Notes under the pieces: generated by a model
Seen by the model: the letters and a program-made list of their open reading frames with translations, nothing else
What the model was told of the DNA's origin: nothing
Database searches by the model: none
Source: a virus
Direction: 5' to 3' (one strand)
Length of the DNA: 24,912 nucleotides
Virus record (IMG/VR): IMGVR_UViG_3300030450_001402
Span: 21,879-46,790 of that record
Program-made: the position numbers and the translations under genes
Part shown: piece by piece, positions 366-22,249 of the stretch
Numbering within the stretch: the stretch's first letter is position 1
Layout of the letters: each line of letters begins with the position of its first letter

Positions 366-673
366 TCTTCCTTTTTCTTTACCATAGGACAGTTGACGGG
401 TGTTCCATTACCCTTATCTTTAGAATTACCAGTAGCCAAGCCAAAAGTCGCCAATGCTCCAGTGAACACCGAAGCAACGAACGTGATATCTGAGTTACCA
501 GATTTCTTGACCATAGGTATTTCCACGTAATTTAAAGTTATTATAAATCCAGACCAAACAACAACGCCAAGTCTGACGAATGTTCCGAGAATCTGAATCT
601 GGGCTTCTTGGTCCTCTATTCCTTCTTTAAGTTTTCCGAGGAGTCCTTTTTTTTCTTCTGATTTTCCTTCCAT
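362..673 (-). CDS. Small two-helix membrane protein, holin candidate
   Basis: The 103-aa protein has a charged N-terminus (MEGKSEEKKG), a hydrophobic segment at about residues 30-50 (FVRLGVVVWSGFIITLNYV), a second at about 62-81 (DITFVASVFTGALATFGLA) and a Lys-rich C-terminal tail ending KKKEE. Two membrane helices, about 100 residues and a basic tail match class II holins, and the place after the tail-fibre region parallels T7 gene 17.5. No sequence motif proves this. The gene starts inside the upstream gene with a 58-nt overlap; a TAAGG about 7 nt before the ATG could serve as ribosome binding site. Alternatively it is also made as the C-terminal part of a -1 frameshift fusion (see findings). 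The protein family is, as I recall, widespread in marine cyanophages as a hypothetical. Confidence 0.8.
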   Translation of the reverse strand: MEGKSEEKKGLLGKLKEGIEDQEAQIQILGTFVRLGVVVWSGFIITLNYVEIPMVKKSGNSDITFVASVFTGALATFGLATGNSKDKGNGTPVNCPMVKKKEE

Positions 674-1017
674 TTGTTAACCTTAGCTTGTAATTGCTTT
701 TGGACTTTCTTTTTAATTGGTTCAAATAATGTTTGTGTAACAGAGGTGGTTGCCACTGCCACTACAGCTGTTGTTACAGCCGTAACCACTACCGCTGTTT
801 CAGGTACTGGCATCTGTATATCTAATACAGGAATTGTTAACTTAGGTGGTTCAGGCTCCTCAGTCGTAGGTTCCGCCTCAGTGTCCGCAGGACGCTCCAA
901 ATCGGCTGGGGGTACGATCATAGGTTTATAGGCTGGAACGTCCGCTGTAGGCGGTTTAAAGTACATCTGAGGGATATCTAATGCCTTGGGTAGGTCAGCA
1001 CTAGGTATCTTTATCAT
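616..1017 (-). CDS. Pro-rich protein with one membrane segment, unknown function
   Basis: The 133-aa protein has three visible parts. Residues 1-72 are Pro/Ala/Glu-rich and probably extended, with repeated short PPADL, PPTADVP and IPVLDIQMP-like motifs. Residues about 74-98 are a hydrophobic Ala/Val/Thr segment (AVVVTAVTTAVVAVAT) able to span a membrane. Residues 101-133 are strongly basic (KKKVQKQLQAKVNKWKE then a KKKK run). The start overlaps the stop of the upstream adhesin as ATGA, and the 3' end overlaps the next gene by 58 nt. The single membrane helix between an extended and a charged helical part could suit a spanin or a holin partner, but no defining motif is present. I recall related proteins in other cyanophages, without a known function. 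Confidence 0.75.
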   Translation of the reverse strand: MIKIPSADLPKALDIPQMYFKPPTADVPAYKPMIVPPADLERPADTEAEPTTEEPEPPKLTIPVLDIQMPVPETAVVVTAVTTAVVAVATTSVTQTLFEPIKKKVQKQLQAKVNKWKENQKKKKDSSENLKKE

Positions 1018-1640
1018 CCTATTGCTGTGATACCAATAATAGGCTGGTTAAATATAGGTCCAGCCCCACCATCCCAGTGATCGAATGTATTTAATTCTGC
1101 ATCATAACCAGCACTATATTCTCTCGCTTGGATTTTTATTGTTTTATTACTAGTCCAACTTGCAACTCTACCAGTATTAGTATCTGCTGAACCACCTATA
1201 TTAAAAGCATATCTATAATACCATTGCCCCTCAAAATAATTATTAGCTGTTACTGTTTTTCGTTGATAAACAACTTCATCGCTATCTAAATATAATCTAA
1301 AATGAGGGATTGGCCATATATCTGGATCAGAGCCATGCATACCATGATACTCATAAATAACCTGTGTAGTTCCTGAAGGTGGTGTATATGTAAAACTAGA
1401 TCCAGTTACATCTGCATAGCTTGTAGATAAAGCTTGTGCTCCAGTTACATTTGCAAGAGTATGATTTCCATCTTGTAATGCTATAACTGATCCGTCACAA
1501 GGAGAAAGGAATTGTTCTAATACTATACGTTGACAGCTGTTGAGCTTTCTAGCTTCAAGATTACCTGCACTAGATAGAACTATATTAGCTGTACCTGAAT
1601 TACTCCCATGAGTAATATTCGTTGTTTTTATTGTACTCAT
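1014..1640 (-). CDS. Adhesin-like tail protein; head module shared with the protein at 4774-5463
   Basis: A 208-aa protein built of an N-terminal leader of about 45 residues (MSTIKTTNITHGSNSG...LSSAGNLEARKLN) and a C-terminal beta-rich module. From VLEQFLSPCDGS onward it aligns along its whole length with the protein at 4774-5463: both carry GN.TL.NVT, DVTGSS, PP.GTT.VIYE, DSDE...QR, IGG.A...TGRVASW and end in IGITAIG. The N-termini of the two are unrelated. The design of a short anchor plus a compact C-terminal head is typical of cyanophage short fibres; receptor binding is inferred from this and from its place behind gp17. It lies 3 nt after the preceding gene, and its TGA overlaps the next ATG. 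No canonical Shine-Dalgarno precedes the start. Confidence 0.85.
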   Translation of the reverse strand: MSTIKTTNITHGSNSGTANIVLSSAGNLEARKLNSCQRIVLEQFLSPCDGSVIALQDGNHTLANVTGAQALSTSYADVTGSSFTYTPPSGTTQVIYEYHGMHGSDPDIWPIPHFRLYLDSDEVVYQRKTVTANNYFEGQWYYRYAFNIGGSADTNTGRVASWTSNKTIKIQAREYSAGYDAELNTFDHWDGGAGPIFNQPIIGITAIG

Positions 1641-1643
1641 AAT

Positions 1644-2285
1644 TTAATCCAGATAACGTAAACAGGCAGTTCCAGCTGTAAATTGATTACCAGAACCAGT
1701 GGTGCTATACATTCTAATCGTATTAATCACATTCCCATTACTACCTGTAGCTAATCTACCAGAACCAACTCTAGATGAAGTATCAGCTTTACCAACATGT
1801 GTTGCTATATATTTATCATCATTTGTTGGATCCATAGGAGTTACTGTAAATATGAAATCCATATCAGTACCAGGGTAAACATACCAAGCAGAGGTACCAC
1901 TTACAATACCTGTGCTGCTTCCATGTGCATATGTACCTACAGAATCATATCCAGAAGTCCAATAGTTATTAGCTCCATAACCAACTATAAAGCCAACATT
2001 ACCATTAGATACGTTTAAACCTGTAACAACAACTTCAAGTTTTTTAAAAGTGGCAGGGAATGCTGCATCCCAATCATACTTCCAAGAACCTGATACATCT
2101 ACTTCAGCTGTTTGTGTCCATATTGAGGCAGGAGTTACCCAACTTAAATTACCCGATCCATCAGTTTTTAATACCTGTCCAGCAGTACCATCTGCTCCAG
2201 GTAGTTTATAGACTGGATCTCCACCACTAGCAGGAGCATCTATTGATACGCTCCCTGATGTGGAGCCGTTTAGTTTTAAGGTCAT
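1644..2285 (-). CDS. Adhesin-like tail protein with a KLPGADG...LKTDGSG anchor module
   Basis: The 213-aa protein has an N-terminal module (residues 1-50) with GSVSIDAPAS, KLPGADGTAGQ and LKTDGSGNLSW, clearly the same module as in the protein at 4774-5463. The remaining about 160 residues (WTQTAEVDVSGSW...TGSGNQFTAGTACLRYLD) are aromatic, Gly/Ser-rich and probably beta-sandwich; the final GS..F.AGT..L pattern recalls C-terminal heads of phage fibres. The ATG overlaps the upstream TGA (ATGA) and is preceded by GGAG at 8 nt spacing, a good ribosome binding site. Assignment to the receptor-binding cassette rests on the shared module and gene context; the ligand is unknown. Confidence 0.85.
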   Translation of the reverse strand: MTLKLNGSTSGSVSIDAPASGGDPVYKLPGADGTAGQVLKTDGSGNLSWVTPASIWTQTAEVDVSGSWKYDWDAAFPATFKKLEVVVTGLNVSNGNVGFIVGYGANNYWTSGYDSVGTYAHGSSTGIVSGTSAWYVYPGTDMDFIFTVTPMDPTNDDKYIATHVGKADTSSRVGSGRLATGSNGNVINTIRMYSTTGSGNQFTAGTACLRYLD

Positions 2286-2875
2286 ACTGCTATCTCCGTT
2301 AAAGTAATTGTACTTGCACCTGGAGAATTATGTTGAGTATTAGTATCAGTATTTGTGCAGTTTATACCATAACCATAACTAGCATGAGTGGTCATACCTC
2401 GTCCTTTATAAGTAATTGCACCAGAAGACCAACTACCAGGTACGGTATCAAGATAAACATAAGTAAATATAGGAGATGCGTAATCACTACTCCTTACATT
2501 CCACCAAACATTACCAGTAAAATTCGATTGATCTGGATCTCCACCAGGTAAAGTTGTTCCATCTCTTTGAAATTCACCTAAGAAAGAATGGTTATCCGTC
2601 TTACTAACACATAATGATGCTTGAATTAAAATTTTATTATTTGCTGCAGTTGGAGTAATATCTAATGTATAACCAGTTAGATCTTCATAAGTAGTATTAG
2701 CTTTATTAATATGTGTATCATGTGTCATTGATACTACTTGAAGCACTGATCCGGCTCCTTTTTTAACTGCAGTTACTGCTCCATTAGCGAGCATATCGGT
2801 ATCTACTATACCGTCTGGTAAACCGCCTACAGCAAGACCTGTGACGGTACCGTTTCCATTAATTGTTATTGGCAT
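2282..2875 (-). CDS. Adhesin-like tail protein with a VLQV-type C-terminal head
   Basis: A 197-aa protein. Residues 1-36 (ITINGNGTVTGLAVGGLPD...DTDMLANGAV) form the same leader module as in the protein at 5793-6494. From GAGSVLQVVSMTHDT to the end (STITLTEIAV) it shows the pattern VLQVV...TYEDLTGYTLDITPTAANNKILI, a fold I know from many phage and marine viral fibre tips, where a strand-rich domain ends in TI.L.EI. The last codons overlap the next ATG as ATGA, and the gene starts 3 nt after the preceding stop. It probably forms a short trimeric spike or fibre tip; that oligomeric state is inferred from the family style, not from a visible motif. Confidence 0.85.
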   Translation of the reverse strand: MPITINGNGTVTGLAVGGLPDGIVDTDMLANGAVTAVKKGAGSVLQVVSMTHDTHINKANTTYEDLTGYTLDITPTAANNKILIQASLCVSKTDNHSFLGEFQRDGTTLPGGDPDQSNFTGNVWWNVRSSDYASPIFTYVYLDTVPGSWSSGAITYKGRGMTTHASYGYGINCTNTDTNTQHNSPGASTITLTEIAV

Positions 2876-2878
2876 AAT

Positions 2879-3421
2879 TTATACGATTGTCCAGGTTTCT
2901 CCATCGCCTACTGTCACTACTACAGCACTGCCGTCACCGTTTCCAGTAGCAGCAATCTCAACAGGTCCAGCAGTCATGGCGTTATGATTATTTGTAATTG
3001 TATAACTATAAGTTATTTCCTTTCCATTCTCCCAGAATATTTTATCAGGACCATTACCTTTTGCTCCAGCAGCTGAGTCACCCCATTCGGGTGCTGTAGC
3101 TCCTGAATTCATTACAAGTGATTGTCCAGCTGTACCTTTAGCTAATCTAGCTAACGTATCTGTACCACTACCATATAAGACATCACCTTGAACAAGTGAT
3201 ACACTTAATTTAGCACCAGTAACTGAATCATCTGCAGGTGTAGTAGTATCTGGTGGTACCGCCCATTCCATACCATTTGAGGTATATCCAAGGAATTTAT
3301 TAGTTCCAGAAGGAGCAGCATGTATATCTAGTTTAGCTTCTTGTATTGTATCGTCTGCTATATCAGCATTAACGATGTCACCATCTTTAATGGATTTTGA
3401 ATTAATTTCTGTTAATGCCAT
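2879..3421 (-). CDS. Short fibre protein carrying a segment paralogous to gp17
   Basis: The 180-aa protein begins [20 protein letters not shown] and has a repeat-like leader (DIADDTIQEAKL) resembling the decapeptide repeats of gp17. Residues about 60-114 run from TPADDSVT to ATAPEWG and match gp17 residues about 641-694 at 40 of 54 positions by my eye count. The C-terminal 50 residues (TYSYTITNNHNAMTAGPVEI...VTVGDGETWTIV) resemble the gp17 tip (SVGPITL...VTVNGRWVIS). So the gene looks like a miniature distal gp17. It starts with TAATG overlap to the small gene before it, and GGAGG sits about 10 nt before the ATG. Probable role: additional fibre or fibre-tip protein. Confidence 0.85.
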   Translation of the reverse strand: MALTEINSKSIKDGDIVNADIADDTIQEAKLDIHAAPSGTNKFLGYTSNGMEWAVPPDTTTPADDSVTGAKLSVSLVQGDVLYGSGTDTLARLAKGTAGQSLVMNSGATAPEWGDSAAGAKGNGPDKIFWENGKEITYSYTITNNHNAMTAGPVEIAATGNGDGSAVVVTVGDGETWTIV

Positions 3422-3597
3422 TAATCAGCTGCCTCCGCTGTGTTACCTTCTGCTACCCAGGCTTTGTATTCTTGGTAGTCGGTGTTTGCATCATCAAAAG
3501 GAATGCAAGCTCCATCTTCTTTTCTAATAACAGAGGATGTTTTATTACCAAATTTAGCTTCGGTAGGGCTTTTCTTATAAGTATAATTGATTTTCAT
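3421..3597 (-). CDS. 58-aa helper-type protein in the adhesin cassette
   Basis: I found this gene by translating the gap between two adhesin genes. The ATG at 3597-3595 directly follows the upstream stop, has GGAG at 6 nt spacing, and its TAA shares one base with the next ATG (TAATG). The protein starts [19 protein letters not shown], contains [20 protein letters not shown] and ends [18 protein letters not shown]. The pattern IPFD..NTDYQEY..W.AEGNT is one I recognise as common next to fibre genes in marine cyanophages, sometimes labelled tail-assembly chaperone-like; the function is not proved. Its tight coupling to fibre genes on both sides supports an assembly or connector role. Confidence 0.85.
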
Positions 3598-4767
3598 TTA
3601 AAGCTCCGCACTAAAGTCTAAACCAGATGTTGCATCATTAGTATATACTTGTATTGATTGCCCAGCTCCTGCGCTGTGGCTATCACAAGTAAACTGAACT
3701 CTACCACCGTCAGGAGTGGTTTCAGAAGAAACTAGCGCTGTTACATCTTGAGAGGCTGCAGTTTCTGAATCTACTTGTAGATCTCCCACTTCAGTAATAG
3801 TTGGAGATGATCTCATTGTTGTTGGTAATTGAAGATGACATCTAGGTTGAGTACTACTAGCCATGATGCCAGATACAACATAAGTATATTGTCTACCGTA
3901 ACCTATTCTAGTAAAATATCTCTGACACTTAAGAAATTCATCACCATACGATCTATGTTCAAAGTCAGTAGCATAATCTCCTACTTCTAATTGAACACCT
4001 GTAATTTCAAATGTTGCATCATTTGTTGTATACCATGTAGCTGTATTAACGGGATTAATAGTTGCACCACTTGCATAGGCAGCCCAAGTATTTAGAGCTA
4101 CTCCTGCATCTGTGTAGTTACCTCCAAATGCTGCATTAACCTCAACTTCCATTCCTGCGCCATTATTATTATCGAAAGTTAAGTTCGCATTTCCAGGTAT
4201 TGTTTTAGTTATTTTTGTCCAAGTATCAGCTGTTAAAGAACCAGTTTCAAATGGATAATTCTGTCTAGTCCCATCTTCTGACCTAATAGTTCCATAGAAA
4301 TTTTGAGCAACACTAGATTTCACCCAGAAAGATAAAGTTAGATAACTTGAGGTTGACGTATAATTCCATCCACTATTAGCTATATTTTGTGCTTCTATTA
4401 CTTGTCTAAATAAAATATAGTCTGGAGCACCTAATCCACTTGTTTGGTTTCCATTTGTTATATGGAAAGAGTTTCTAAATCCTGCAGCCCACGGACCAGT
4501 ATCACTAGAAGTTAAAGCGTGTTGAGCTGAAGTAGGTGCTTCGTCAGTATTAGCGTGTAGACATTTCCATCTATCGACAGAACCATAGCCGTTTGTAGTT
4601 GATGAAGTAGCTCTTTGAGCAACATTCATCGCACCGTTAATTATTAAATTTCTATTACTTAAGTTGTTGGTGATATTTGCAGTACAGGTTTTATCAGAAG
4701 CTGTAAGGGATATGGCATCACCAGTACCATTAGATGCTCTTATTGCATCGACATTTATTTGACTCAT
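3598..4767 (-). CDS. Phage tail fibre / carbohydrate-binding-like adhesin, 389 aa
   Basis: The N-terminus MSQINVDAIRASNGTGD with DKTCTANITNNL and then NRNLIINGAMNVAQR is a hallmark, in my memory, of fibre-associated proteins of cyanophages and other marine phages. A central region (YLTLSFWVKSS..., WTKITKTIPG) has the strand pattern of a carbohydrate-binding jelly roll, and ITGVQLEVGDYATDFEHRSYG followed by CQRYFTRIG is the characteristic end of that domain. About 100 further residues form a C-terminal beta-rich extension ending GLDFSAEL. AGGA lies about 9 nt before the ATG. It is the longest member of the cassette after gp17. Glycan binding on the host surface is the inferred role. Confidence 0.88.
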   Translation of the reverse strand: MSQINVDAIRASNGTGDAISLTASDKTCTANITNNLSNRNLIINGAMNVAQRATSSTTNGYGSVDRWKCLHANTDEAPTSAQHALTSSDTGPWAAGFRNSFHITNGNQTSGLGAPDYILFRQVIEAQNIANSGWNYTSTSSYLTLSFWVKSSVAQNFYGTIRSEDGTRQNYPFETGSLTADTWTKITKTIPGNANLTFDNNNGAGMEVEVNAAFGGNYTDAGVALNTWAAYASGATINPVNTATWYTTNDATFEITGVQLEVGDYATDFEHRSYGDEFLKCQRYFTRIGYGRQYTYVVSGIMASSTQPRCHLQLPTTMRSSPTITEVGDLQVDSETAASQDVTALVSSETTPDGGRVQFTCDSHSAGAGQSIQVYTNDATSGLDFSAEL

Positions 4768-4773
4768 AATGTT

Positions 4774-5463
4774 CTATCCTATTGCTGTAATTCCGATAGA
4801 TGGTTGATGGAATTGGTCATCATTACTACCACCTGTCCATTGACTGCTTTTATGAACTGAATTGTCATTACTTGCATGATGACTTGCAACTTGTAGTTTT
4901 AGAGTTTTTGCAGAAGACCAACTTGCTACACGACCTGTAGTTGTAGATGCTGTTCCTCCTATTGGAATACCAATTTTATATTGACATAATTGAGCAATAT
5001 TTGCATTTCCACCTAAATTAAACCGTTGGTTAGTAATTTCATCACTATCTATATTGAATGTAAAACATCCAATTCCATAACTATCCTCCCAACAGTCCAT
5101 AAAGTTAAATTCATATATGACCATTGTTGTACCAGTGGGAGGTACATAAGAGATTGATGAACCAGTTACATCAACAAAACTTGTTGTTGCATTTTGAACA
5201 GCAGTTACATTACCAAGAGTGATATTACCACCACTTGTAGCGATAGTTGAACCATCACAAATATGGTAGAACTGTTCTAGTATATTAGGTTTCCCAGGAT
5301 TAAAACTTAATTGACCTGAACCATCAGTTTTCAAATATTGACCTGCTGAACCATCTGCTACAGGAAGTTTTAAACTAACTGCAGCATTACCTGTTGTGGA
5401 AGCTGGTCCTTTAAGAGCCACACTTCCTCCGCCTGAATCAGCGGATATTTTTACTTCTGCCAT
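4774..5463 (-). CDS. Adhesin-like tail protein; chimera of two modules reused in the cassette
   Basis: A 229-aa protein. Residues 1-54 (GGGSVALKGPAS...KLPVADGSAGQYLKTDGSG) are the same module as the N-terminus of the protein at 1644-2285. From about residue 60 (NILEQFYHICDGSTI) to the end (PSIGITAIG) it is a paralogue of the C-terminal module of the protein at 1014-1640. The gene therefore shares its front with one neighbour and its back with another. It begins by TAATG overlap with the small helper-type gene before it and has no clear Shine-Dalgarno of its own, so coupling is likely. Receptor binding is inferred. Confidence 0.87.
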   Translation of the reverse strand: MAEVKISADSGGGSVALKGPASTTGNAAVSLKLPVADGSAGQYLKTDGSGQLSFNPGKPNILEQFYHICDGSTIATSGGNITLGNVTAVQNATTSFVDVTGSSISYVPPTGTTMVIYEFNFMDCWEDSYGIGCFTFNIDSDEITNQRFNLGGNANIAQLCQYKIGIPIGGTASTTTGRVASWSSAKTLKLQVASHHASNDNSVHKSSQWTGGSNDDQFHQPSIGITAIG

Positions 5464-5789
5464 TATGATTTAGGATATTTATCTTTAGTTGCTTTTATGG
5501 TAGCTTTCCATCCATCTATACCATTATGATAGATGTCATCCAACTGATCGACCACAGAAGGAAACTCTTCTCTACGTTTGGATTTATAAGAATCATTTTC
5601 TAAATTCCAAGCATCTTGTAAGGCTTTTAATCCATCAGTACATTCTTGTTCAGTAGGTTTAGATCCACCGTCATGAACAATTAGATTTGCATAGATTCTG
5701 TTTTTTGAATCTGACCATCCATACCATTGACCACTTCTTACAGTTAGAAGGTAGTCTGAGATATGATCAGGTTTTCCATTAATATCCAT
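5463..5789 (-). CDS. Tail fibre assembly / chaperone-like protein, 108 aa
   Basis: The sequence GQWYGWSDSKNRIYANLIVHD at the front and YKSKRREEFPSVVDQLDDIYHNGIDGWKATIKATKDKYPK at the back (quoted here only as family pattern: Y..KR..EFPS..DQLD..YH.G.DGWK..I...KDKYPK) match a small protein found next to fibre genes in many cyanophages and related to tail-assembly chaperone families. The protein is acidic and probably mostly helical in its C-terminal half. GGAG stands about 9 nt before the ATG. The gene lies 3 nt after the preceding adhesin and overlaps the next by TAATG. It probably helps one or more cassette proteins to fold or attach; direct evidence is lacking. Confidence 0.85.
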   Translation of the reverse strand: MDINGKPDHISDYLLTVRSGQWYGWSDSKNRIYANLIVHDGGSKPTEQECTDGLKALQDAWNLENDSYKSKRREEFPSVVDQLDDIYHNGIDGWKATIKATKDKYPKS

Positions 5790-5792
5790 TAG

Positions 5793-6494
5793 TTAAATCT
5801 CCAACCATTTAAAAGCACGTAGACCTGTTCTATGTCTCTCTGTCGATCCAAGTATACGAACATCATTCGTTCCACTTCCATAATTATGACAGTTCCAAGT
5901 CAAATTAAATTTTTGATTAGTTAAATCAGTAATTTTCAGAAAGGCTCTAGATATGGTAGTTGCATAAACAGTAGTATTTCCATCAAGGTTATTAGTCCAC
6001 GATTCAGCATAAGTATTCCAGTTTGAAGCATTATCTGATGTGTACATTATATATGCTCTGGTATAAGCATTAATGGCATTATTAATACTAGTGGTTAGCT
6101 GAAAGTTAATATCCCACCATCCAGTACTAGGGAAAGTATAGACACCTGATGAAGGAGCATTAAAGCCAGTACCAATTTGATTAAAGCCAGGCGTATCCGA
6201 TCTTTCTATATTATATCTTAGTATTCCTGAAGAGTCGTCTCCAGACCATGCACCAGTATAGAAACTATCAGTTAGTCTCCATTCGTCATAAACAATAGGG
6301 CCACCTCCACCAGGGTCAGCCCAACTGTTATCTCCTCTTAAAAATGTAGAAGAACTAGCTGTACCTGTAGCAGATAATTCAGCAACTCCAACAGAATCAT
6401 CTGCCAATGTGCCGTTATCAATGGTATTATCAGGTACACCACCAACAGCTAAATTTGTTATAGTTCCACTTGAACCTAAATTTAAAGTTCCCAT
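5793..6494 (-). CDS. Adhesin-like tail protein with a C1q-like C-terminal head
   Basis: A 233-aa protein immediately behind gp17 (TAATG overlap). Residues 1-38 (GTLNLGSSGTITNLAVGGVP, then DNTIDNGTLADDSVG) are the leader module also found at the start of the protein at 2282-2875. A linker SSTFLRGDNSWADPGGGGP, with the FLRGD.SW pattern common in fibre proteins, leads to a C-terminal domain of about 155 residues with GVYTFPSTGWWDINFQLT, RAYIMYTSDNASNW and ending RAFKWLEI. The alternating aromatic strands and the place of the last strand resemble C1q/TNF-like or fibre-tip jelly rolls; this is a judgement by pattern. Role: probable receptor-binding spike. Confidence 0.85.
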   Translation of the reverse strand: MGTLNLGSSGTITNLAVGGVPDNTIDNGTLADDSVGVAELSATGTASSSTFLRGDNSWADPGGGGPIVYDEWRLTDSFYTGAWSGDDSSGILRYNIERSDTPGFNQIGTGFNAPSSGVYTFPSTGWWDINFQLTTSINNAINAYTRAYIMYTSDNASNWNTYAESWTNNLDGNTTVYATTISRAFLKITDLTNQKFNLTWNCHNYGSGTNDVRILGSTERHRTGLRAFKWLEI

Positions 6495-9028
6495 TAGCTA
6501 ATCACCCAACGTCCGTTTACAGTTACAGTGTTATTTAAAGTTATAGGACCGACACTGTGCGCCCCTTCAGTAGCTGCTATTGTATGTGCATCACTAATTG
6601 TTAAAGTGTTTTTCCACATAGTTCCATTAGCAGAACTAGAAGAAACTCCTGTTAATGCTGAACCATCTCCAGAGAAACTAGTAGCACCAAGAGCACCAGT
6701 ATTAGAATTAAAGGTTAAGTTAGAACCACTCTTAGGTGCAAGATCTCCTGTAGCTGCTGTTACAAATAATGGAAAACAAGTTGTATCAGTTGATTCATCA
6801 GCAACTGTTATATCTGTTGGAGTAGCAACAACGAAATCTAATGTACCATCAGAATCATCATATGTAACTGCAATACCTGTTTCAGTATTACCAGTAACCA
6901 TACCTCCGACATAATCTTCTACTTGTTCTTCTGTTAAACCAGAATCAGTTCCCCACTCTGGAGCCGTAGCACCTGAGTTCATCTTTAGAACTTGACCTGC
7001 TGTACCCTTAGCTAAACGTGTCCAGCTATCAGTACCATCAGCATAAATAACATCACCTTGTACTAAAGATATATCTGTCTTACCTGCTGTAACTGAGTTA
7101 TCAGCTGGTGTGTTAACTGATACTGCAGAACCACATTTAGTTACATATAAAGTAGATCCACTTGGAGGAGGATCACAGAATCTAATACCGTCAGCACCAT
7201 CTAAATGGAAACCTTCATTAGAACCACTCCATGTACCATCATTAGGTTTCTGTAAGACACCATTTAATACTACAAGTAATTGAGCAGCTTGTGTTATACT
7301 AGCATCTGAAGTACCTTCAAATAAATCATATTGATCAATAGTCCCATTAAATGTAGGACCAGCTCCATCATGAGCTTCACCATTATCTTTAACACTTAAT
7401 ATCTTAAATTCACCAGTTGATGTAACTTCACCCCATGCAGATCCATCATAGACCTTCATCTTGTTAGCAGTCTTATTAAAGAATAGATCTCCTTCATCAT
7501 TATCTGAACCAGGATCACTATTTCCTATACGGTATCTTGCATTGAAGTCATTTATATCATCACTTAACTGTACAAAGTCTGACTCTTTTATCATTACCTG
7601 ATGGTAATCATAGATCTGACCAGATCCAGTGGATTTAACCATTAGACCAGTACCAGCTCCTAAGACATAAGGATCAGCATTTGAACCTACTCCACCTCTT
7701 AGTTCAGAAGGGAAGCCATTAATTGTTACAGTTGTATTATCAAGTGTATCAGCATTAGTAGATACACCACTTGAGTTAATAGATATCCCTGCAGCATCTG
7801 CAATACTGATTACAATACCAGCAGCAGCTTGAGTATTAGGGAAAGATTCATCATCTGCTATTACAGAGAAACCACCTAGAGGTGATATCTGTCCTGCTAC
7901 ATAATCAACAACAGCTCCTGAAGTTGGTATGTGAGAATCACTATCTGATATAGTTGTCTGTTCGCAATCTATCATACCGATTTCAACGGTATTTGCACCG
8001 ATTGCAGATACACCAGCATTATTAATGGTTATATCACCAGATAATGCTACTTCAGCTGCTTTATTAGAACCATTACCAACTAGTATTTTAGAACTATCTA
8101 GGTTCTCTAATTTAGTAAATTCAATAGCTGCGCCAGCTGCAACAGAAGCATTGACTACAGCATCAGATGCAAGTTCATCTGCTCCTACAGCATCATCAGC
8201 TAGATGTTCATTATCAATACTTGCTGCAACATAGTGCTCAGAATTGATAGAATCATCAGCTATCTTTGTACCATCTACAGCATCACCTGCAATCTTTACA
8301 GTTGTTACTGCACCACTTGCTAAGGCTGTAGCATCTACAGAACCAGGTGCATAATGCTCTGCATCTATAGAATCCGCTGCTAAGTGTTCTGAATTAACAG
8401 CATCATCTGCTATTCTAGTCCCATCTATAGCATCTGCTGCTATATCAGCTGTAGCTACTGCTCCATCAACAATCATACCTGATGTAATGGAATTAGCTTT
8501 ACCTTCTATTAAAATTGTACCAGATACATCTGGAATAGTAATAGTTCGATCAGCTGTTGGATCAGTTACTGCTAAAGTAGTTTCATAATCATTATCAGTA
8601 GCACCTTCAAATATAATACTAGCATCCTCACCTATGGTAAGATCACCAGTCATTGTTCCACCAGTATTAGCGAAATATCTATCGTTTATCTCTTGTGAAA
8701 CATAAATGTTTTGGGTAGAATTATCATTTAGATCTTCAGACTTAATCGCTGAACCTGGATAGAAGGTAGCAGCAAGGCTGTCAATATTTGTCTTTCTAAG
8801 TATTTTAATTTTTACTGCAGATTTGGGAGCACCACCAGATTCTTGTGTACTGGTTGCTCCTCCACTGGGGGCGGTAAATTGAATTGTTGTCGCATTGGCC
8901 AAAGACCAATTCGTAGTAACCGAGGCATTAAGTTGAACTTCAATGTCGGTACTCTTAAGATATGGAAATGTGAATGAGTAATTGGTGGTGGAACCATTAC
9001 CTGTATAAGACGTTTCTGTAACAGCCAT
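6494..9028 (-). CDS. 17: Tail fibre protein, T7 gp17-like
   Basis: An 844-aa protein (T7 gp17 is 553 aa). Residues 1-125 are the T7 tail-fibre N-terminal domain that attaches to the tail: YTGNGSTTNYSFTFPYL, KIKILRKTNIDSL, FYPGSAIKSEDLN and an N..QNIY...EI motif. Residues 189-308 are twelve decapeptide repeats (see separate entry). Further on come GDLFFNKTANKMKVYDGSAW, LLVVLNGVLQKP..., and at about 641-694 the TPADNSVT...ATAPEWG block shared with the gene at 2879-3421. The tip ends VTVNGRWVIS. The gene sits 9 nt after gp16, as in T7. It binds the host surface and forms the fibre shaft; the host receptor cannot be read from sequence. Confidence 0.95.
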   Translation of the reverse strand: MAVTETSYTGNGSTTNYSFTFPYLKSTDIEVQLNASVTTNWSLANATTIQFTAPSGGATSTQESGGAPKSAVKIKILRKTNIDSLAATFYPGSAIKSEDLNDNSTQNIYVSQEINDRYFANTGGTMTGDLTIGEDASIIFEGATDNDYETTLAVTDPTADRTITIPDVSGTILIEGKANSITSGMIVDGAVATADIAADAIDGTRIADDAVNSEHLAADSIDAEHYAPGSVDATALASGAVTTVKIAGDAVDGTKIADDSINSEHYVAASIDNEHLADDAVGADELASDAVVNASVAAGAAIEFTKLENLDSSKILVGNGSNKAAEVALSGDITINNAGVSAIGANTVEIGMIDCEQTTISDSDSHIPTSGAVVDYVAGQISPLGGFSVIADDESFPNTQAAAGIVISIADAAGISINSSGVSTNADTLDNTTVTINGFPSELRGGVGSNADPYVLGAGTGLMVKSTGSGQIYDYHQVMIKESDFVQLSDDINDFNARYRIGNSDPGSDNDEGDLFFNKTANKMKVYDGSAWGEVTSTGEFKILSVKDNGEAHDGAGPTFNGTIDQYDLFEGTSDASITQAAQLLVVLNGVLQKPNDGTWSGSNEGFHLDGADGIRFCDPPPSGSTLYVTKCGSAVSVNTPADNSVTAGKTDISLVQGDVIYADGTDSWTRLAKGTAGQVLKMNSGATAPEWGTDSGLTEEQVEDYVGGMVTGNTETGIAVTYDDSDGTLDFVVATPTDITVADESTDTTCFPLFVTAATGDLAPKSGSNLTFNSNTGALGATSFSGDGSALTGVSSSSANGTMWKNTLTISDAHTIAATEGAHSVGPITLNNTVTVNGRWVIS
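8105..8464 (-). repeat. Twelve 30-bp units coding decapeptide repeats in the gp17 shaft
   Basis: Reading in the gene-17 frame, twelve successive 10-residue units run without insertion or deletion from GAVATADIAA to GAAIEFTKLE. Typical units are DAIDGTRIAD, DAVNSEHLAA, DSIDAEHYAP, DAVDGTKIAD and DAVGADELAS. The rough consensus is D-A/S-I/V-D/N-x-x-x-L/I-A-x: hydrophobic residues at fixed spacing and acidic turns, as expected for a fibrous beta or mixed shaft. Codon use varies between units, so this is an old or purified protein repeat more than a fresh DNA duplication. Confidence 0.85.
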
Positions 9029-21737: not shown

Positions 21738-21890
21738 TTATTCACCCAAGAGGGCTTCTTCCAAGGAGTTATAATCTACCTCCTCGTCAACACCTGGAGG
21801 TTGTTGATCGCTAGGATTAGTATCAACTTTCTCAGGTTCAGGTGAAAAGGACGTGACCATTGCACGTCCATCTGTTGATTGGTGTGACAT
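21738..21890 (-). CDS. 50-aa acidic protein between the porin-like gene and the capsid leader
   Basis: Found by translating the stretch before the capsid leader. The ATG at 21890 shares one base with the stop of the porin-like gene (TAATG), which supports a real gene. The protein starts MSHQSTDGRAMVTSFSPEPE, is Pro/Asp/Glu-rich in the middle (NPSDQQPPGVDEEVD) and ends YNSLEEALLGE. It has no signal peptide or membrane segment and looks mostly disordered with a short C-terminal helix. I do not recognise it. Its place just before the capsid gene could suit a head or decoration helper, but that is a guess. Confidence 0.7.
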   Translation of the reverse strand: MSHQSTDGRAMVTSFSPEPEKVDTNPSDQQPPGVDEEVDYNSLEEALLGE

Positions 21891-22249
21891 TAGAATTTAA
21901 ACTTGGCACCTATTTTTGTACCATAAGCTGTATCATTAACTTCATCTGTAAGGAAAGAAACCTCACCGTAGATGTCTAACTTCTCAGAAGCAGCAATGGA
22001 TAAACCACCTTTGCCAGAGAAATCTGTGTTACCGTCAGCTCCATCAGGAGAAGTAAAAGCAGGACCACCTTGAATGTAATATCCAAGTGAACCTACATCG
22101 CCTTCATATCCAAGATGAAGATCAGTTGTTCTACCTGTAAAATTATTTCCTGTATAAGATCCGTTTGACTCAGCGTTGATATAGACGCCAGCCATTGCAG
22201 GAGTCGAAGCGAATGTAGTTGCCGCTAGGGCTAGTGCAATTTTTTTCAT
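21890..22249 (-). CDS. Small porin-like outer-membrane beta-barrel protein
   Basis: A 119-aa protein with a clear Sec signal peptide (MKKIALALAATTFASTPAMA, cleavage after residue 20) and a mature part of about 99 residues. The mature part has alternating strands: GVYINAESNGSYTG, TTDLHLGYEGDVGSLGYYIQ, LSIAASEKLDIYGEVSF and a final strand ending in Phe (GTKIGAKFKF), the usual sign recognised by the outer-membrane insertion machinery. I recall close relatives in marine cyanophages. At this length it can give only about eight strands, so a small OmpA/OmpW-like barrel or an oligomer is more likely than a full porin. It sits in the hli-psbA block, suggesting action on the infected cell more than in the virion. 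Confidence 0.8.
   Translation of the reverse strand: MKKIALALAATTFASTPAMAGVYINAESNGSYTGNNFTGRTTDLHLGYEGDVGSLGYYIQGGPAFTSPDGADGNTDFSGKGGLSIAASEKLDIYGEVSFLTDEVNDTAYGTKIGAKFKF

Follow-up and report, generated by a model that had tools for sequence, protein, structure and literature searches.

Ordered fronts and exchanged heads in a candidate receptor-binding cassette behind gp17 of a T7-like cyanopodovirus-type genome

In a stretch of viral DNA of 24,912 nucleotides (positions 21,879 to 46,790 of the IMG/VR virus record IMGVR_UViG_3300030450_001402; the window in the following), the tail fibre gene gp17 is followed by a cassette of nine coupled genes, most of which encode small adhesin-type proteins that consist of a short front and a C-terminal head. 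Across related loci, the order of the fronts is nearly invariant and the first front is linked to a conserved tip domain of the fibre, while the heads are exchanged within and between positions. The interpretation that we favor, with a probability of about 0.68, is that the locus serves as a receptor-binding cassette with several adhesins and standard sockets, in which the small adhesins would dock on the fibre tip by their fronts and recombination would swap their heads.

The nine genes, C, D, E, F, K, G, H, I, and J, follow one another closely on the minus strand, and neighboring genes overlap or are separated by gaps of no more than 6 nucleotides. The junctions are TAATG between gp17 and C, 3 nucleotides between C and D, TAATG between D and E, 6 nucleotides between E and F, and 0 nucleotides between F and K, followed by TAATG between K and G, 3 nucleotides between G and H, ATGA between H and I, 3 nucleotides between I and J, and ATGA between J and a conserved phrog_9426 gene. 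The original prediction, which was made from the sequence alone, had described nine coupled genes with TAATG, ATGA, or 0–6 nucleotide junctions, and its coordinates, frames, and coupling were all correct. The two helper genes that it counted imply K as the ninth gene, an open reading frame at 3597-3421 that, with 58 residues, fell below the 60-residue limit of the original list of open reading frames and was missing from it; K occupies an apparent gap of 176 nucleotides between F and G, starting directly after F and ending in the TAATG with G. The components are listed below from gp17 onward, with slots (S1 to S3) and head classes (h0 to h3) as described further on.

6494..9028, minus strand: gp17 tail fibre, with an N-terminal anchor (PF03906), a repeat stalk, and a C-terminal tip domain (~6497-6628).
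5793..6494, minus strand: C, candidate slot-1 adhesin of set 1, with an S1 front (~6309-6494, common to H) and an h1 head.
5463..5789, minus strand: D, small XkdW-like helper (phrog_9114, E-value 2.5e-17).
4774..5463, minus strand: E, candidate slot-2 adhesin of set 1, with an S2 front (~5296-5463) and an h2 head (4777-5283).
3598..4767, minus strand: F, candidate slot-3 adhesin of set 1, larger type (phrog_4492 tail fibre, E-value 5e-47), with a variable C-terminus (~3598-3899).
3421..3597, minus strand: K, helper of 58 residues (phrog_20370, E-value 1.6e-11), usually directly behind F.
2879..3421, minus strand: G, mini-gp17 leading set 2, with stalk repeats and a tip (~2882-3067) and without the anchor domain.
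2282..2875, minus strand: H, candidate slot-1 adhesin of set 2, with an S1 front (~2756-2875) and an h0 head.
1644..2285, minus strand: I, candidate slot-2 adhesin of set 2, with an S2 front (~2136-2285) and a singleton head.
1014..1640, minus strand: J, candidate slot-3 adhesin of set 2, with an S3 front (~1557-1640) and an h2 head (~1017-1526).
616..1017, minus strand: B3, conserved gene closing the cassette (phrog_9426, E-value 3e-44), with an ATGA overlap with J; this flank is kept in relatives.

An all-against-all BLASTP comparison of the cassette proteins with SEG filter and composition correction gave four significant similarities, i.e. between the backs of E and J (47% over 170 residues, E-value 1e-45), the fronts of E and I (62% over 42 residues, E-value 2e-8), the fronts of C and H (38% over 39 residues, E-value 5e-5), and G and gp17 (74% over 54 residues, E-value 1e-21). 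Because these similarities survive filter and correction, they are not low-complexity artefacts, and the three cases of module sharing and the mini-gp17 that had been proposed initially are borne out. None of the remaining protein pairs was significant after filtering and, therefore, the heads of C, F, and I are unlike the rest within this genome. The longest ungapped DNA copy within the cassette comprises 67 nucleotides at 78% identity, documenting that the shared stretches are old at the DNA level; a recent duplication in this genome was rejected for the same reason.

For comparison, we collected related loci from IMG/VR via four anchors (the DUF6450 gene, J, the gp17 N-terminus, and H) and added the isolates P-SSP7, SS120-1, and 9515-10a, giving 239 marine phage loci after removal of duplicates (metagenomic loci are designated by L and a number). 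Genes were labeled with profiles of the fronts, D, K, G, and the tip domain, which were built from small sets of the same loci. The fronts fall into S1 (C and H), S2 (E and I), and a third place, S3, that is taken by J or by F together with K. The order S1 > S2 > S3 is nearly invariant: among neighboring adhesin genes, S1 is followed by S2 in 94 cases, S2 by S3 in 82, and S2 by S2 in 10, with three other transitions, and there are zero transitions from S2 to S1 or from S3 to S2 among the neighboring pairs of this set. The window contains two consecutive sets, gp17-C-D-E-F-K and G-H-I-J. The same two-set layout, with D missing, is present in L094, and L134, L218, L194, and L022 likewise have two tip-bearing leaders each; counterparts of G were found in L094, L134, L086, L088, and SS120-1.

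The two leaders of the window have the tip in common. In gp17, the anchor matches PF03906 over residues 5-126 (41.7 bits at a cut-off of 25.2), the stalk resembles the P-SCSP1u fibre (PDB 8i4m, E-value 3e-55), and the tip domain was detected by profile. In the alignment, G retains the stalk repeats and the C-terminal tip of gp17 while the tail anchor region is gone, and G had no match in Pfam, including none to the PF03906 N-terminal anchor domain. For the main association test, only loci obtained with the two adhesin-independent anchors, DUF6450 and the gp17 N-terminus, were used. Among them, an S1 gene comes next behind 19 of 22 tip-bearing gp17 genes and behind 0 of 47 tipless ones (Fisher p ~3e-14). 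Across all loci, 106 of 108 S1 genes lie directly after a tip-ended gene (38 gp17 and 68 G-type genes). In at least two of the apparent exceptions to the link between tip and S1 (L089 and L011), a second, related kind of S1-like front is present. This genetic link between tip and S1 suggests that S1 proteins physically dock on the tip.

The heads are exchanged both within and between slots. With head classes defined as single-linkage clusters (E-value <1e-6, 60% coverage), each of the four commonest classes is present behind at least two slot types. The counts behind S1/S2/S3 in all loci are 99/56/6 for h0, 4/15/0 for h1, 0/13/6 for h2, and 4/8/4 for h3, where the loci fetched with H inflate h0 in S1; in the unbiased set, the corresponding counts are 21/14/1, 3/4/0, 0/4/3, and 1/6/3. 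Between loci, fronts are at least 70% alike in 3850 same-slot pairs, and in 1926 of these the heads have no detectable similarity; identical fronts are combined with such heads in, for example, the pairs L186/L212 and L188/L232. Between slots, the S2 head of L182 and the S1 head of L249 are 86% identical. The window itself follows the same pattern: the front of J is 78-92% alike in L001, L088, L089, L091, L096, and L151, there with other heads, and the front of I has homologues in more than 30 loci while its head has almost no relatives.

The same borders are evident in DNA. Over 238 loci, homologous DNA covers the fronts, helper genes, and junctions of the cassette and is nearly absent from the C head, the I head, and the end of F; most of the C head has no homologous DNA among these loci, and conservation drops to zero over the final 300 nucleotides of F. 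DNA profiles have sharp borders around nucleotide 150-200 of the genes, and in places an identity of 90-100% stops abruptly at the border between front and head. Module exchange at these borders, the central claim of the original prediction, is thus strongly supported across relatives and in DNA. Relatives do not carry one fixed set without swaps: L094 has nearly the same gene order as the window, with the first 20 residues of the E, F, I, and J fronts 85-100% alike and the heads only ~10-30%. The prediction had missed the rule behind the exchange, namely the fixed slot order, the two complete sets, and the tip of gp17 or G that predicts the set. Its further proposals, that one virion has several receptor-binding proteins, that host range changes, and that the locus actively creates variants, are putative.

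One pair of loci may have captured an exchange. An S2-front gene of L011 and an S3-front gene of L086 have heads with 93% protein identity whose DNA is mostly 100% identical, and their fronts are unrelated; the downstream DNA is 100% identical for ~2 kb, G is mostly 90-100% identical, and the slot-1 gene differs. The arrangement of L086 is present in a second assembly, L087. The difference is probably a recent recombination or, alternatively, an assembly chimera. It lies at L011:1379-2068 and L086:3126-4432 and consists of a fusion between an S2 and an S3 gene together with the replacement of the slot-1 gene. For the window, scans of viral contigs anchored on E and on C yielded no close copy and two fragments, respectively, and there is, therefore, no near-identical sister cassette for comparison. 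L097, the contig whose gp17 start is most similar to that of the window, breaks off only a little way into the C gene; over L097:1-12711, the gp17 N-terminus has 99% protein identity to that of the window, and the DNA is a mosaic with ~90% identity over 2.2 kb and 72-79% elsewhere.

To the structure of the heads we applied AlphaFold monomer models of E and H, generated with alignments from window and locus proteins only. Both models have confident all-beta heads and low-confidence front tails; for E, the predicted local distance difference test score is ~95 over much of the head and ~50 in the front. The best solved folds for these heads are Pgp3 and the TNF-like lectins BC2L-C and PLTL (E-values ~6e-6 to 4e-3); fibre or spike domains of lambda and phi812 were matched as well. 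Where modeled, i.e. in E and H, the heads are predicted to be TNF-like jelly rolls. The h0 family corresponds to the C-terminal part of the fibre orf22 (PDB 9efk, 18 chains; E-value 1e-31). Three gp17 proteins (L139, L048, and L022) have such heads fused at their C-terminus, and in none of the three was the tip present or an S1 gene following. These few fused cases support that the heads act at the end of the fibre.

Relatives of D lie behind 77 of 156 h0 heads, 11 of 23 h1 heads, and 0 of 20 h2 heads. Because they follow h0 and h1 approximately half the time and h2 never, this distribution fits a head-specific chaperone, which D probably is. In L048:5503-9648, a gp17 with a fused h1 head has a D gene directly next to it, and in the window the separate h1 adhesin C likewise precedes D; the presence of D behind both fused and separate h1 heads fits that D serves the head. 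D itself had no match to Pfam XkdW (PF09636), and its L134 homologue scores 26.8 bits at a cut-off of 24.6. K is located directly behind F in 52 of 62 cases.

We suggest the following working model. The T7-type N-terminus of gp17 would hold the fibre on the tail, and the far end of the fibre would carry the conserved tip domain rather than a head that binds receptors. Small trimeric adhesins would attach to this tip as separate proteins, each with a front of 25-60 residues that names the slot and a TNF-like jelly-roll or other head that touches the host surface, and D- and K-type proteins would aid the folding or assembly of particular heads. The two sets would act in series, the first led by gp17 and the second by G, a mini-gp17 cut down to stalk and tip. 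Homologous recombination between co-infecting relatives would swap heads within and between slots; that fronts, junctions, and helper ends are alike in DNA and heads are not points to ordinary phage recombination. The model predicts that the cassette proteins are present in the virion, that they trimerise, dock on the tip by their fronts, and bind receptors with the assistance of chaperones, that exchange affects host range, and that one virion may carry several receptor-binding proteins. In line with what is seen in secondary receptor-binding proteins, a conserved N-terminal peptide is combined with a diverged remainder, i.e. conserved fronts with unrelated heads. More tentatively, we speculate that three different trimeric adhesins form an ordered array on each fibre tip with slot-specific sockets, that heads are moved by recombination, and that the mini-fibre is a second array; if true, one particle could try five or six receptors at once.

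Several points weigh against this model. The TM-scores of the top TNF-like matches are weak (query-normalised, 0.31-0.39 for E and 0.44-0.53 for H), and C, E, H, I, and J had no C1q or TNF family match in Pfam or NCBIfam; the NCBIfam scan of these five proteins gave nothing useful, and a sequence search of solved structures with E or an E profile gave nothing meaningful. The relatives are metagenomic contigs, among which assembly chimeras are possible. That the cassette proteins are part of the virion is deduced from their genes, G has no anchor domain, leaving the attachment of the second set to the virion unexplained, and the genes could be neighbors because they are inherited together as a single mobile block, with their products not touching each other.

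In an alternative that we consider unlikely, the locus is a hypervariable host-recognition island with adhesins as ordinary cargo, fronts that are generic trimerisation linkers, an order given by descent, and no sockets on the tip. Marine phage metaviromic islands are described as containing genes for a tail fibre, C1q-like proteins, XkdW, and fibre assembly, and in these the C1q heads vary while the N-termini are better conserved (PMC3909814); S1 and S2 fronts are also found within long fibres. However, this alternative leaves unexplained that S1 is missing in all 47 cases in which gp17 has lost the tip, that S1 follows a separate mini-gp17 where gp17 is tipless, and that order violations are nearly absent while heads move freely. 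A second alternative, that the small proteins are capsid or vertex decorations that aid adsorption from the head of the virion rather than tail proteins, appears far less plausible. The lack of a tail anchor in G would be consistent with it, unusual appendages on the capsid are possible in cyanopodoviruses, and the cyanophage Syn5 reportedly has horn and knob proteins as capsid decorations; yet heads of these families are found as C-terminal fusions to gp17 in L139, L048, and L022 and end the fibre in PDB 9efk, the matched PHROG families are tail fibre families, and the genes are linked to the fibre tip and not to the capsid gene. Finally, a dedicated switching device (a diversity-generating retroelement, invertase, or site-specific recombinase), for which the repeated modules in one locus could serve as substrates, is largely refuted as the source of variation: all cassette genes are on one strand, the whole 46.8-kb record has no reverse transcriptase (RVT_1) and no tyrosine or serine recombinase, and the cassette has no inverted repeat above 75% over ~25 nucleotides and no near-identical direct repeat. 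Retroelement, invertase, and integrase were, therefore, rejected as exchange routes, and ordinary phage recombination at conserved borders is the simplest route in a record without a dedicated recombinase or retroelement.

The record of 46.8 kb contains, in order, hli, psbA, the genes for the major capsid, tail, and internal virion proteins, gp17, variable genes, the phrog_9426 gene, and a gene for a DUF6450 membrane protein, and the gene order in the window is of the T7-like cyanopodovirus type. The phrog_9426 gene (616-1017) and the DUF6450 gene (362-673) overlap by 58 nucleotides in different frames, and an overlap persists in many relatives. Between psbA and the capsid gene, 21890-22249 encodes a small beta-barrel protein with a full-length match to Pfam Phage_OMP (cyanophage outer-membrane-like barrel; E-value 3e-42).

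How short-tailed cyanophages recognize Prochlorococcus and keep up with receptor change is little understood, and in the cryo-electron microscopy analysis of P-SCSP1u the distal fibre was unresolved (PMC10575957). The clearest isolate example of the arrangement described here is P-SSP7 (NC_006882), in which a tip-ended gp17 (E-value 2e-29) is followed by gp37 (S1), gp38 (S2), gp39 (S3), gp40 (D-type), and gp41 (F/J-type front); gp37, gp38, gp39, and gp41 all have h0 heads, which are 29-42% alike where pairwise matches were found, so that one genome combines one head family with four different fronts. P-SSP7 and the window agree in the position of the genes and in the families of fronts, helper, and heads, whereas P-SSP7 has one set of five genes with four heads of one family, compared with two sets and no fewer than four head types in the window. 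Because P-SSP7 is a culturable model, this grammar points to candidate receptor-binding proteins and sockets in a system in which the question is directly testable. It also provides a reading guide for host-recognition loci in metagenomic phages, in which the front gives the position and the head the specificity, and fixed fronts with freely swapped heads suggest a standard-socket system to sample new host receptors.

Comparable solutions exist in other phages. T-even phages have a separate small adhesin, gp38, at the conserved tip of the long tail fibre gp37; this resembles the window in the separate small adhesin and the conserved fibre tip, but there is one adhesin and no ordered set, and no sequence relationship was seen. 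Marine host-recognition islands (PMC3909814) and podovirus receptor-binding proteins docked by N-terminal peptides (PMC6872550, PMC13082707) are already known; for the ordered three-slot adhesin set, its tie to the fibre tip domain, the movement of heads from one slot to another, and the doubling of the set with a mini-gp17 as leader, we found no earlier description in the accessible literature. The metaviromic islands share with the window the tail fibre, C1q-like heads, XkdW, fibre assembly, and heads that are more variable than N-termini; the accessible part of that report describes under-recruitment and does not describe slot order, linkage of tip and S1, head movement between slots, or a double set. 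The anchor-branched systems, i.e. G7C gp66/gp63.1, K1-5/SP6, and Klebsiella KP32 gp37/gp38 (PMC6872550, PMC13082707), are also from podoviruses, and in these an anchored receptor-binding protein carries others that are docked by a short conserved N-terminal peptide with swapped heads behind it, an arrangement that in the window would be matched by the putative docking of the fronts. They have one or two extra large enzymatic receptor-binding proteins, usually on a T4 gp10-like domain; no such domain is among the Pfam matches of gp17 (Pfam only, with no profile-profile comparison). In contrast to these systems, the window has three small adhesins per set with three fronts in a fixed order, a different tip as the putative dock, and a second set that is led by a mini-fibre.

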